Part shown: positions 14,930 to 19,888 of the stretch, one piece after another
Layout: each line of letters opens with the position of its first letter
How positions within the stretch are numbered: the stretch's first letter is position 1
Source of the DNA: Pseudomonas sp. R84
GTDB taxonomy: Bacteria > Pseudomonadota > Gammaproteobacteria > Pseudomonadales > Pseudomonadaceae
Direction: 5' to 3'
Assembly: GCF_009834515.1 (NCBI RefSeq)
Contig: NZ_CP019426.1
Location: 4,825,501-4,889,500 of the forward strand
DNA length: 64,000 nucleotides
The notes under the pieces: generated by a model
The model's input: the letters and a program-made list of their open reading frames with translations, nothing else
Database searches by the model: none
Told to the model about the DNA's origin: nothing
Program-made: the position numbers and the translations under genes

Positions 14930-17053
14930 GTGTTTTTCGCTCCTCCCCCTCCCCGTTCGTCCCTTTTGCTGGCGCTGTTGTTCAGCCCGCTTGTGCTGGC
15001 GGACGACCTGTTCACGGACAACGAAGCACTGCCGCAAGTGCTGACGGCCACGCGCCTGAAGCAAACCCCGGCGGAAGTGCCAGGGAGCATGACCGTACTC
15101 GACAGCGAATTGATCAACGCCAGCGGTGCCCGCGACATCAGCGAACTGCTGCGCCTGGTGCCAGGGATGATGGTCGGCAACATCAGCGGCAATCAGGCGG
15201 CGGTCAATTATCACGGCACCAACGCCAGCGAAGCGCGGCGCATGCAGGTGCTGATCGACGGCCGTTCGGTGTATCGCGCCGGTTTGTCGACGGTGGACTG
15301 GAGCGATATTCCGGTGGCCATGGAAGACATCGAACGCATCGAGGTTTTTCGCGGGCCGAACACCGTCAGCTACGGCGCCAACGCGCTGATGGCGGTGGTC
15401 AACATCATCACTCGGAACCCGGCGGACAGCCACGGCACGCGGTTGAAGTACACCCGTGGCCAGCGCGGCATCAATGACTTTTATGCCAGCCAGGGCATCG
15501 GCTGGAATGGCGGTGATTTGCGCCTGTCGTTGTCCGGCCAGGAAGACGATGGTTTCGACAGCGATCGCAGCGGCGCCGATTACCGCGACAGCCGCCGTTT
15601 GAATCGCTTCAGTCTTGCGGTCAGCCAAACCCTCAGCGATAACCAGAGTCTCGACTGGCAGGTCAACGCGAAGGACGGGACAAACCAGCGGCCGTACACC
15701 TACCGCCCGGTGTTCTCCGGGATTACCGCCGCCGGGAACAATTCCGACGTGGTCGCCAAGGACTATGCCGGCTCGGTGCGCTGGAACCTCGACATCAACC
15801 CCGAACACAGCCTTTATATACAAGGCTCGGCGCAACACTGGGATCGTCAGCAGACCTGGCGCGCCTGCGATGCCGAGGTGTCGTTCAGCCCCGAGTTGAC
15901 GCAACTGTGGCAACTCAACCCGAATTACACCGAACGCCTGGCGCGCAACATCACCCGTTTCACCGGCCCCGGCGCTGAGCCCGGTACCCCGCAGGAAATG
16001 GCCCTGGCCAATCAGGTGCTTGATCAATGGCGCAACGGCGCCAGCCGAACCCTGTGCGGCGACATCGACCAGAGTGCCCGGGAATCGCGCTACGACCTCG
16101 AATTGCAGGACACTCTCAGCCTGTCCGATAGCCTGCGCCTGGTCAGCGGCATGAACTATCGTTACGACCGCGCCGACTCCGAGACCTACTTCAACGGCAC
16201 ACTGGACGACACCACCTGGCGCGCCTTCGGCCAACTGGAATGGCGCGCCACCGAACACTGGCTGCTACAGGGCGGTGCGATGTTCGAAAACACGCGACTG
16301 ATCGGCAGTTCGCTGACCCCGCGTTTCGCCGTCAATTACCTGATCAACCCGCGCCACGGCCTGCGTGCGGTGTATTCGGAGGCGATCCGTTCGCCGGACA
16401 TGTTCGAGAACAATGTGAACTGGAGCTATCAGGTCAGCAACCTGCGCCCCTCGGCCTACGGCCAGTCTTCGGCGCGCTACTTCGTCAAGACGCGGGGGCC
16501 AGGCGATCTCGATCAGGAACACATGCGCTCACGCGAGCTGGGCTACAACGGCTATTTCGCCGAATTGGGTCTGGCTTTGGATGTGAAGCTGTTCTATGAC
16601 GAGATCACCGGGATGATCAGCGAGCCGCTGCGTAACAACCAGTACATCGCCAGCAACGCCAACAGCTCACGGTTTCGCGGCACGGAAACCCAGCTCGACT
16701 GGCGCGTGAGCCTGGCCGACCGCTTGCGTTTCACCTATGCCTTCGTCGATGCCGAGGCGAGTAATCCGCTCGATCAGCAGTTCACTTCACGCAACAGCGG
16801 TTCGGCCGGCTGGCTGCGCGACTGGGGCCATGGCTGGAACAGCGCCCTCTTCTATTACGGCGACAACGCACTCAACGGCTACCGTTTCGAACGGGTCGAC
16901 ACGCGCATCGCCAAACGCATCCCGCTGGGCAAAGCGCAGCTGCAATTGGCCGGCGTGCTGCAGCAACGCCTCGACCATGAGCCGAGCACTTTCGTCGACA
17001 ACAATTACGACGAACGCCGGGTGATGTATTTCAGCGCCGAGCTGGAGTTCTAG
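14930..17053 (+). CDS. TonB-dependent outer-membrane receptor
   Basis: The product has about 707 residues. A hydrophobic leader (SSLLLALLFSPLVLA) is followed by a TonB-box-like VLTATRLKQTP segment and a complete plug (MTVLDSELINASGARDISEL ... VEVFRGPNTVSYGANALMAVVNIITRNP). A 22-strand type barrel follows, ending in the C-terminal aromatic MYFSAELEF required for outer-membrane assembly. The start is unclear: the GTG at 14930 gives a leader without N-terminal positive charges, while an ATG at 14896 in another frame encodes the missing basic segment. The stop lies one base before the next gene. The ligand is unknown, and I see no Fur box. Confidence 0.88.
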   Translation: MFFAPPPPRSSLLLALLFSPLVLADDLFTDNEALPQVLTATRLKQTPAEVPGSMTVLDSELINASGARDISELLRLVPGMMVGNISGNQAAVNYHGTNASEARRMQVLIDGRSVYRAGLSTVDWSDIPVAMEDIERIEVFRGPNTVSYGANALMAVVNIITRNPADSHGTRLKYTRGQRGINDFYASQGIGWNGGDLRLSLSGQEDDGFDSDRSGADYRDSRRLNRFSLAVSQTLSDNQSLDWQVNAKDGTNQRPYTYRPVFSGITAAGNNSDVVAKDYAGSVRWNLDINPEHSLYIQGSAQHWDRQQTWRACDAEVSFSPELTQLWQLNPNYTERLARNITRFTGPGAEPGTPQEMALANQVLDQWRNGASRTLCGDIDQSARESRYDLELQDTLSLSDSLRLVSGMNYRYDRADSETYFNGTLDDTTWRAFGQLEWRATEHWLLQGGAMFENTRLIGSSLTPRFAVNYLINPRHGLRAVYSEAIRSPDMFENNVNWSYQVSNLRPSAYGQSSARYFVKTRGPGDLDQEHMRSRELGYNGYFAELGLALDVKLFYDEITGMISEPLRNNQYIASNANSSRFRGTETQLDWRVSLADRLRFTYAFVDAEASNPLDQQFTSRNSGSAGWLRDWGHGWNSALFYYGDNALNGYRFERVDTRIAKRIPLGKAQLQLAGVLQQRLDHEPSTFVDNNYDERRVMYFSAELEF

Positions 17054-17054
17054 T

Positions 17055-17987: not shown

Positions 17988-19888
17988 GTTTCCGTCGCCG
18001 TTGGGACATCAATACCCGCACCCAGCTGATCAGCCTGGGTCCGGCGCTGTTGCTGACCCTTCTGTTGATCAGCTTCTTCACCTTCGTGCGCATTCAGGAT
18101 TTGCGCCAGGAGCTGAACCACACCGGCCAATTGATCGCCAACCAACTCGCGCCTGCCACCGAATACGGAGTGATTTCCGGCAACAACGAAGTGCTGGAAA
18201 GTCTGCTCAAAGCCACGCTGGCCACGCCCAATGTGCGTTTTCTTGAAGTGCAGGACAGCGCCAACCGGATTCTGGTGTACGTCGAGCAACCCGCCGCAGC
18301 GCACAGCCGACCGCATCAGGTCGAAGTGTTCCAGGCACCGGTGCGCTTGCAGCGCATCGCCCTGCACAACGATTTCTTCCAGGACGGCAAGGTCAACAAT
18401 GGCGGGGCCAGCGAAGATTATCTGGGTCGGGTGATCGTCGGCCTGTCCAACGATGCCTTCAGCCAGCGCCAGCAGGAAATCCTGTTCAAGGCCGCAATCC
18501 TCGCATTGTTTGCACTGCTGTTTACCTTCGTCCTGGCGCGGCGTCTGGCCGGCAGTCTTTCTCAGCCGATCCGCGACATCGGCGATGCAGTCAAGGCGAT
18601 TCAGGAAGGCGACTACAAAACGCCACTGCCCATTGTCGATGACACGGAACTGGGCGCCCTGTCACAACACATCAATAACCTCGCCGAGGCGCTGGAGCAG
18701 GCCAGCCGCGAGCAGCATCAAGCCATGGCGCAACTGATCCAGACCCGCGAAGAAGCGGAAAAGGCCAACAACGCCAAGTCCGACTTTCTGGCGATGATGA
18801 GCCATGAGCTGCGCACGCCCATGAACGGCGTGCTGGGCATGCTGCAATTGCTGGAAACCACCGAGATGACCGAGGAGCAGGTCGAGTACGCCGCCCTCGC
18901 CTCGGAGTCCACCGAACACCTGCTGAAAGTGATCAACGATATTCTCGACTTCTCGCGCATCGAACGTTCCGAGCTGGAACTGGAACACATCCCGTTCAAC
19001 CTTGCCGAACTGATCGGCGCCTGCGCGCAGTCGTTCCAGCACAGCGCGGTGCAACGCGGCCTGGCTTTGAATTTGCGCATCCCGGACGACATGCGCGGTT
19101 TGCAGGTGCAGGGCGATCCGACGCGGATCCGGCAGATTCTGGTCAACCTCGTCGGCAACGCACTGAAATTCACCGAGCAAGGTCGCGTCAGCATCGAGGC
19201 GCAGTGGCAGTCGCTGGATCACGAACTGCTGTGGTTCACCTGCTCGGTGCGCGACAGCGGCATCGGTATTTCGTCCGAGAGCCTGGAGCTGATGTTCAAC
19301 GCGTTCCAGCAGGCCGACAGTTCGATTTCTCGGCGCTACGGCGGCACTGGCCTCGGTCTGCCGATCGCCCGTACGCTGGCCGAACGCATGGGCGGCACCT
19401 TGCGCGCACAGAGCGAGGAAGGTCGCGGCTCGGTATTCACTCTGGAAATTCCGCTGGCACTCTATAAGCAGGCGCTGCCGCCACTGGCCGCGCCGCGTGC
19501 ACTGAACGGCAAGGGCCAGGGCGAAGGGCGCAATGTCTTGCTGGTCGAAGACAATCCGGTGAACCAGACAGTTATTGAAGCGATGCTGCGCAGCTTGGGC
19601 TTTACTGTCAGTGTTGCCGCCGATGGAGCACAAGCGGTGCGCAGTGCCGAGGGCAGCGACTTTGAGGTGATTCTGATGGATTGCCGTTTGCCGATCATCG
19701 ATGGCTACGAGGCTACCCGGCAGATCCGGCGGCTGCCCGGACGAAGTGAAGTGCCGATCATCGCGCTGACCGCCAACGCGTTGCAGGGCGACCGTGAAAC
19801 CTGTCTGTCGGCGGGCATGAACGATTATCTGGCGAAGCCGTTCAAACGTAATGATCTGCAGCAGATTCTGCAGCGCTGGGTGTCGTAG
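17984..19888 (+). CDS. Hybrid histidine kinase (PA1611-like by position)
   Basis: The 634-residue kinase has TM1 at about residues 13-35, a periplasmic domain of about 130 residues, TM2 at about 166-187 and HAMP. HisKA follows (His274 in [14 protein letters not shown]), then a HATPase domain ([30 protein letters not shown]) and a C-terminal receiver ([18 protein letters not shown]; Asp566 in [12 protein letters not shown]). There is no Hpt domain, so phosphate must pass to a separate Hpt protein. In P. aeruginosa the kinase beside fabA, PA1611, acts on HptB and binds RetS; orthology here rests on position and architecture. The periplasmic region resembles that of GacS. Confidence 0.9.

Follow-up and report, generated by a model that had tools for sequence, protein, structure and literature searches.

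Co-inherited genes for a TonB-dependent receptor, a periplasmic binding protein and a PA1611-type hybrid kinase in Pseudomonas: a likely envelope-spanning sensory relay

The stretch of DNA analyzed here, hereafter the window, covers 64,000 nucleotides (contig NZ_CP019426.1, positions 4,825,501 to 4,889,500) of the 6.6-Mb genome of Pseudomonas sp. R84. It carries three coupled genes on the + strand, spanning positions 14930-19888, which encode a TonB-dependent receptor (TBDR), a periplasmic substrate-binding protein (SBP) and a hybrid histidine kinase. These three genes are co-inherited, and we consider it likely that they work together as a single sensory relay spanning the envelope and feeding the Gac/HptB network, with an input part that is portable and old in the GacS/BarA family.

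The TBDR gene (14930..17053, GTG start, 707 residues), the SBP gene (17055..17987, 310 residues) and the kinase gene (17984..19888, 634 residues) were all called as open reading frames (ORFs) on the + strand. A 1-bp gap separates the first two, and a 4-bp ATGA overlap joins the last two. The cassette is flanked by divergent gpsA on one side and, on the other, by fabA and fabB (20136..21883, + strand), the conserved 3' neighbors of the kinase. No permease or ATPase of an ATP-binding cassette (ABC) transporter adjoins it, as far as the flanking genes gpsA, fabA and fabB are concerned (the rest of the genome was not searched for permeases), and no further PF04392 protein was found elsewhere in the genome. 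This gene order, with its spacing and the lack of transporter genes at the locus, had been proposed in a preliminary description of the stretch and is borne out by the ORFs and the Pfam matches.

The receptor contains a Plug domain (PF07715) and a TonB_dep_Rec barrel (PF00593), both over the Pfam cut-off. Its Pfam listing includes no STN signaling domain, which separates it from FecA-type receptors, and its similarity to BtuB, CirA and TOL_0244 is dominated by the plug. The SBP has the two-lobed, type I fold of TrpX-like proteins, and its second lobe contains a stretch of conserved residues. Among the matches listed, the closest named relative of the SBP locus is that of Pseudomonas fluorescens HKI0874 (96%).

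The kinase is built of sCache_4, HAMP, HisKA, HATPase and REC domains and has no Hpt domain in Pfam. Its receiver matches PDB entry 7c1j with 187 bits and 73% identity over 119 residues, and this entry is given as PA1611REC in the part of PMC7467158 consulted. Receiver sequence and common fabAB locus together identify it as a PA1611-type kinase, in agreement with the preliminary description. On the BarA equivalog model it scores 471 bits (cut-off 890) and, having no Hpt domain either, it falls outside the GacS/BarA type proper. A tree of 93 kinases likewise places the fabA-locus kinases of the family in one group of 26 rows (Shimodaira-Hasegawa-like approximate likelihood ratio test, SH-aLRT, 99), separate from the GacS/BarA-type rows. 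For P. brassicacearum, a passage of PMC8175716 counts the PA1611 homolog as part of the GacS kinase cluster. The genome also encodes a short Hpt protein (120-residue frame) and two 7TMR-DISMED2 proteins, all left at this level of assignment. As a separate observation, the kinases of genus g18 (L068-L073, L075-L080; 492-527 residues) and that of L060 in genus g11 (509 residues) stop after the ATPase domain (Pfam on L060, L068 and L078). They are still accompanied by TBDR and SBP, which indicates that the input outlives the receiver and that another output must serve there.

The co-inheritance was followed in 148 genomes of the window's family. The SBP was found in 69 of them and a TBDR ortholog (E<=1e-60) in 68, the two sets being identical except for G004, which has the SBP only. 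We compared all 68 SBP-bearing loci besides the window, together with 32 of the 34 SBP-less kinase loci (G099 and G113 were left out). The full order gpsA|TBDR-SBP-kinase-fabA-fabB is present at 65/69 SBP loci, three others being cut by contig ends and one lacking the TBDR, and the 4-bp overlap between SBP and kinase recurs in 64/69, with start codons picked by script. All 32 SBP-less loci show gpsA|HK-fabA-fabB (HK, histidine kinase) and lack a TBDR. Receptor and binding protein occur together in all these genomes but G004, and at the 32 loci the kinase stands without both. Among the named Pseudomonas loci (n=80), 78 are full, one is cut and one has no TBDR. On the catalytic-domain tree, SBP presence has to change seven times, and well-supported branches make three of these changes unavoidable. 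SBPs encoded at fabA in the family make up a single clade; in both the kinase and the SBP trees the placement of long-branch rows is unsure.

Some variation around the cassette was also recorded. In genus g5, about 2 kb separates kinase and fabA at 18 loci (L082-L098, L107), 17 of them SBP-bearing, and the extra gene before fabA encodes an AMP-binding enzyme in all four loci scanned. At L060 the extra gene encodes a protein of the major facilitator superfamily (MFS). Five g10 genomes (L131-L135) possess elsewhere a second TBDR, 58-61% identical to that of the window and without an SBP, which lies near other kinases in two of the five.

A change in the kinase itself accompanies the absence of the SBP. 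The first 500 kinase residues were scanned in 11-residue segments for the departure of SBP-less lineages from SBP-bearing lineages of other genera. The top segment comprises residues 125-135 (18356..18388, + strand), in a periplasmic loop. Its difference of 2.12 exceeds the maximum of 1.52 obtained by label shuffling over 35 lineage clusters (0 of 1000 shuffles as extreme), although the shuffles take no account of the tree and thus yield no exact probability. The second most changed segment, residues 57-67 (18152..18184, + strand), is also periplasmic, and its peak of 0.61 stays below the shuffle 95% point of 0.95, inside the shuffle range. On average, SBP-less kinases show no loss of conservation in their transmembrane, HAMP and catalytic parts. 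A pattern for the loop, drawn up by eye from the very data that it scores, fits 68/69 kinases with an SBP vs 5/32 without. In an AlphaFold2 (AF2) model (61 sequences; mean predicted local distance difference test, pLDDT, 83.8; predicted template modeling score, pTM, 0.61), residues 122-145 form a loop without secondary structure, and the 125-135 loop lies between strands 113-121 and 146-155. A segment that becomes ordered upon binding a partner would be expected to lack structure in this way. Residues 125-135 are thus a candidate docking segment for the SBP.

The same input module was then found outside the family. A profile search with the SBP gave matches in 67/274 genomes of the Gammaproteobacteria, the window's own included; for the 76 matches outside the window, 60 places were retrieved and 55 counted, and 16 weaker ones were left out. 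Neighbors were counted by domain coordinates, since over-long ORF starts had hidden some of them. A TBDR lies upstream on the same strand at 42/55 loci, and a signaling protein directly downstream at 47/55, of which 45 share the sensor N-terminus of the window's kinase. At L257 and L283 the TBDR, SBP and sCache_4-HAMP input is joined to a PAS-GGDEF-EAL output. These two outputs behind the same input indicate that the SBP is tied to the sensor and to no single type of output. Among the five weakest retrieved loci (L301-L305), two SBPs precede GGDEF proteins, two precede kinases and one precedes neither. Also, L284 and L285 (family f130) have TBDR and SBP at fabA-fabB with no recognized kinase.

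Many of these loci coincide with the gacS/barA locus. One or more of cysM (a name that we take to fit this neighbor of gacS), rlmD and relA lies inside the retrieved stretch at 28/55 loci, 20 of which have the TBDR too. All three genes are neighbors of the gacS of the window (31287..34040, + strand, 917 residues, sCache_4-HAMP-HisKA-HATPase-REC-Hpt), and rlmD and relA are neighbors of barA in E. coli. When the N-terminal 300 residues of GacS were searched against 42 SBP genomes, 38 gave a match at E<=1e-15, a sole match in 35/38, and the best match adjoins the SBP by coordinates in 37/38, the exception being G192. The kinase of G202 stands before the SBP, and the match in G227 is to the GGDEF-EAL protein. 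All six SBP-linked kinases scanned have the complete sCache_4-HAMP-HisKA-HATPase-REC-Hpt architecture. For example, L281 is a GacS/BarA-type kinase by its BarA equivalog score (908 bits), its REC and Hpt domains (Hpt 25.0 bits, cut-off 24.6) and its relA-rlmD neighbors, and an SBP adjoins it; at L263 and L267 both SBP and TBDR are present. In the kinase tree, a 14-row set (support 97) unites L263, L267 and L281 with E. coli BarA and the GacS of the window. This placement of the module before GacS/BarA-type kinases, and the many kinases without TBDR and SBP, go beyond the preliminary description.

As a control, 20 GacS-like loci were chosen as SBP-less. One of them, L364, turned out to bear an SBP; at the remaining 19, SBP and TBDR are both lacking. 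No SBP or TBDR stands beside the GacS of the window or E. coli BarA either. Outside the PA1611-type group, a class-wide sensor-loop pattern fits 34/45 SBP-linked vs 1/22 SBP-less rows (E. coli BarA included), although it was tuned on the same data and also fits 38% of shuffled loops. The pocket histidines 97, 124 and 133 of GacS, named in the part of PMC7695008 consulted, give no usable separation of SBP-linked from SBP-less sensors; in the GacS of the window, positions 97 and 133 are His and position 124 is Arg. At the gacS/barA locus, the kinase is split into 490 + 500 residues in L252 and is a single 930-residue ORF in its close relative L253.

Taken as one relay, the system would work as follows. 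The TBDR would import a scarce ligand into the periplasm, where the TrpX-fold SBP would bind it. The SBP would then dock on the flexible loop, at about residues 122-145, of the sCache_4 periplasmic domain and switch the kinase. In this organism the kinase would probably feed the HptB/RetS-GacS network, as PA1611 does. Elsewhere in the Gammaproteobacteria, the TBDR, SBP and sCache_4 module would drive GacS/BarA-type kinases at gacS/barA, or GGDEF-EAL proteins. A candidate promoter-like element, GTTAACAT (14890..14897, + strand), lies upstream of the TBDR gene. An element of this type with 0-1 mismatch precedes the first gene at 49/67 TBDR-first and 26/32 kinase-first loci, and at the remaining loci the best match has two or three mismatches, the chance expectation for such a stretch. 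Its presence upstream of both locus types is what one promoter serving the whole set, and the kinase alone after loss, would produce.

A wider reading, to which we give even odds, is that the TBDR-SBP pair was the ancestral input of GacS/BarA. The Gac signal of many Gammaproteobacteria would then be a TonB-imported, SBP-presented ligand; Pseudomonas would have kept this input on the PA1611-type paralog at the fabA locus, and Pseudomonas GacS and E. coli BarA would have lost it.

Several results weigh against the relay and its wider reading. Besides the origin of both loop patterns in the data that they score and a shuffle test blind to the tree, the family pattern is retained by the five SBP-less kinases mentioned above (four in one g12 subclade, one in g5). 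The correlation of distances after removal of gpsA and fabB is uninformative (SBP-sensor 0.57 vs SBP-catalytic 0.58). Across the class, 13/55 loci have no TBDR inside 1.5 kb (4 of them with <2.2 kb of upstream sequence), 8/55 have no signaling gene directly downstream, and L281, whose kinase exceeds the BarA cut-off, has no TBDR in 3.9 kb upstream. Four of the five SBP-linked kinases scored on the BarA model remain under its cut-off (L267, 814 bits; L251, 710; L279, 681; L278, 557), as does the GacS of the window (842 bits). None of the NCBIfam models listed for the TBDR passes its cut-off, and hence none assigns it a ligand. The SBP reaches 18.3 bits against PF04392 (ABC_sub_bind; gathering cut-off 25.9), and because of this score we regard it as a fold relative of the ABC_sub_bind/TrpX type only.

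The SBP shares its fold with aromatic amino-acid binding proteins of the ABC type. A single promoter region may serve all three genes, and the permease search stopped at the flanks, so that a partner transporter could be encoded elsewhere. TBDR and SBP might then be an uptake pair only, importing a nutrient via an unlinked ABC transporter, with a kinase that is co-transcribed or regulating and never touches the SBP. We find this unlikely, as the cassette between gpsA and fabA offers no space for an ABC gene and the extra genes observed encode an AMP-binding enzyme or an MFS protein; moreover, the SBP accompanies the sensor domain even where the output is GGDEF-EAL, and its absence tracks the decay of one periplasmic kinase loop. 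That decay requires binding alone, not ligand transport, and some class-wide loci combine SBP and kinase with no TBDR nearby. Both facts would suit an SBP that regulates the kinase from the periplasm independently of any ligand, either as an envelope sensor or as a YfiR-like clamp, with the TBDR as its partner or regulator instead of an importer. This alternative appears similarly improbable, given the two-lobed fold with its conserved run in the second lobe and the absence of the TBDR wherever the SBP is absent in the family.

The single clade of fabA-locus SBPs means that the gene order within the family has a single origin, as inherited synteny without functional coupling would predict. We disfavor this explanation and consider it very improbable: the module recurs at fabA, gacS/barA and other loci across the class, TBDR and SBP are absent together, with SBP presence changing seven times on the tree, and the 4-bp overlap is conserved. 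The sensory relay remains our preferred explanation.

The three genes fit PA1613-PA1612-PA1611 of P. aeruginosa, by locus numbering and literature passages and not by comparison of the PA1612 and PA1613 sequences. According to passages of PMC3462791, which in the literature searched is the only mention of PA1612, the PA1612-PA1611 operon is co-transcribed with fabA, PA1611 adjoins fabA, and PA1611 has no effect on fabAB. PA1613 appears in five of the papers listed, two of these on unrelated subjects to judge by their titles; a passage of PMC9864456 includes it with the iron-acquisition proteins analyzed there. The preliminary description had linked the locus to nutrient or iron status; nothing in our data points to iron. 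According to the parts of PMC7467158 and PMC7695008 consulted, the output of PA1611 is phosphotransfer to HptB together with the release of GacS from inhibition by RetS. The receiver nearest to PA1611REC is that of L074/G126 (95.8%), an SBP-bearing genome of genus g9, in the same kinase clade and with a full cassette. No match better than 96% exists in the 25 g9 genomes, and P. aeruginosa seemingly lies outside the sample. The idea of a loss of TBDR and SBP in P. aeruginosa, which took genus g12 as its group, proved wrong, PA1611REC being nearest to SBP-bearing g9.

In the passages of PMC7695008 consulted, the ligands of the GacS family are unknown, and that of GacS is treated as a small molecule binding the sensor pocket directly; its main text gave no match for TonB or receptor. 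Titles and abstract openings of the papers listed contained no description of a receptor-SBP-kinase relay, nor of GacS/BarA with TonB-dependent receptors. No use of PA1612 or PA1613 as PA1611 input was found either, PA1611 being studied alone in the passages available.

The surroundings of the cassette deserve a brief description. On the strand of the PA1611-type kinase, gacS follows 11.4 kb further downstream, and between fabA-fabB and gacS are mazG-, relA-, rlmD- and cysM-type genes in opposite orientation, followed, between cysM and gacS, by a sensor kinase and OmpR-type regulator pair (28936-31078, - strand). Just beyond gpsA are a histidine phosphatase (PF00300; 12877-13329, - strand), which we presume to be SixA-like, and a DUF4389 protein (13326-13673, - strand). 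SixA-type enzymes target Hpt domains, and the proximity of this one to an Hpt-relay kinase may be relevant. Also, two spurious ORFs, near 12.75 kb and 24.0 kb, have the peptide SLLAIAVYQS...SSRAGSLL in common and hint at an intergenic repeat.

If the relay operates as proposed, TBDR and SBP encoded with GacS-family kinases would provide two ligand-binding proteins to screen, plus a predicted docking loop. In some lineages the GacS/BarA-type kinase itself has TBDR/SBP partners, and the signal of this sensor family thus becomes testable. PA1611, for which the passages available give no known input, gains PA1613 and PA1612 as a candidate sensor set.

Compared with known systems, the closest is PA1611 of P. 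aeruginosa, with a 73% identical receiver, the fabAB locus and the PA1613-PA1612-PA1611 numbering in common; in the passages available, however, PA1611 is considered without PA1612 and PA1613 as its input. LuxP-LuxQ and TorT-TorS combine a binding protein with a hybrid kinase. Here too the periplasmic protein, whose gene is coupled to that of the adjoining hybrid kinase, is probably the ligand subunit, but it is TrpX-like, the sensor is an sCache_4 domain and a TBDR is part of the set. Cell-surface signaling of the FecA/FecR type couples a TBDR to signaling via an anti-sigma factor. The TBDR gene described here is likewise coupled to a signaling output, whereas no STN domain was found in its product and the path would run via SBP and kinase. 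YfiBNR forms a relay from outer membrane through periplasm to inner membrane, in which a periplasmic protein acts on a membrane sensor, as we propose for the present system, but with a TBDR, a two-lobed SBP and a histidine kinase as its parts. Finally, GacS/BarA and the kinase of the window have the sCache_4-HAMP input in common. The kinase of the window differs from them in lacking an Hpt domain, and the GacS of the window and E. coli BarA differ in lacking an adjoining SBP and TBDR, while elsewhere GacS/BarA-type kinases with both REC and Hpt, such as the six scanned, are linked to an SBP.

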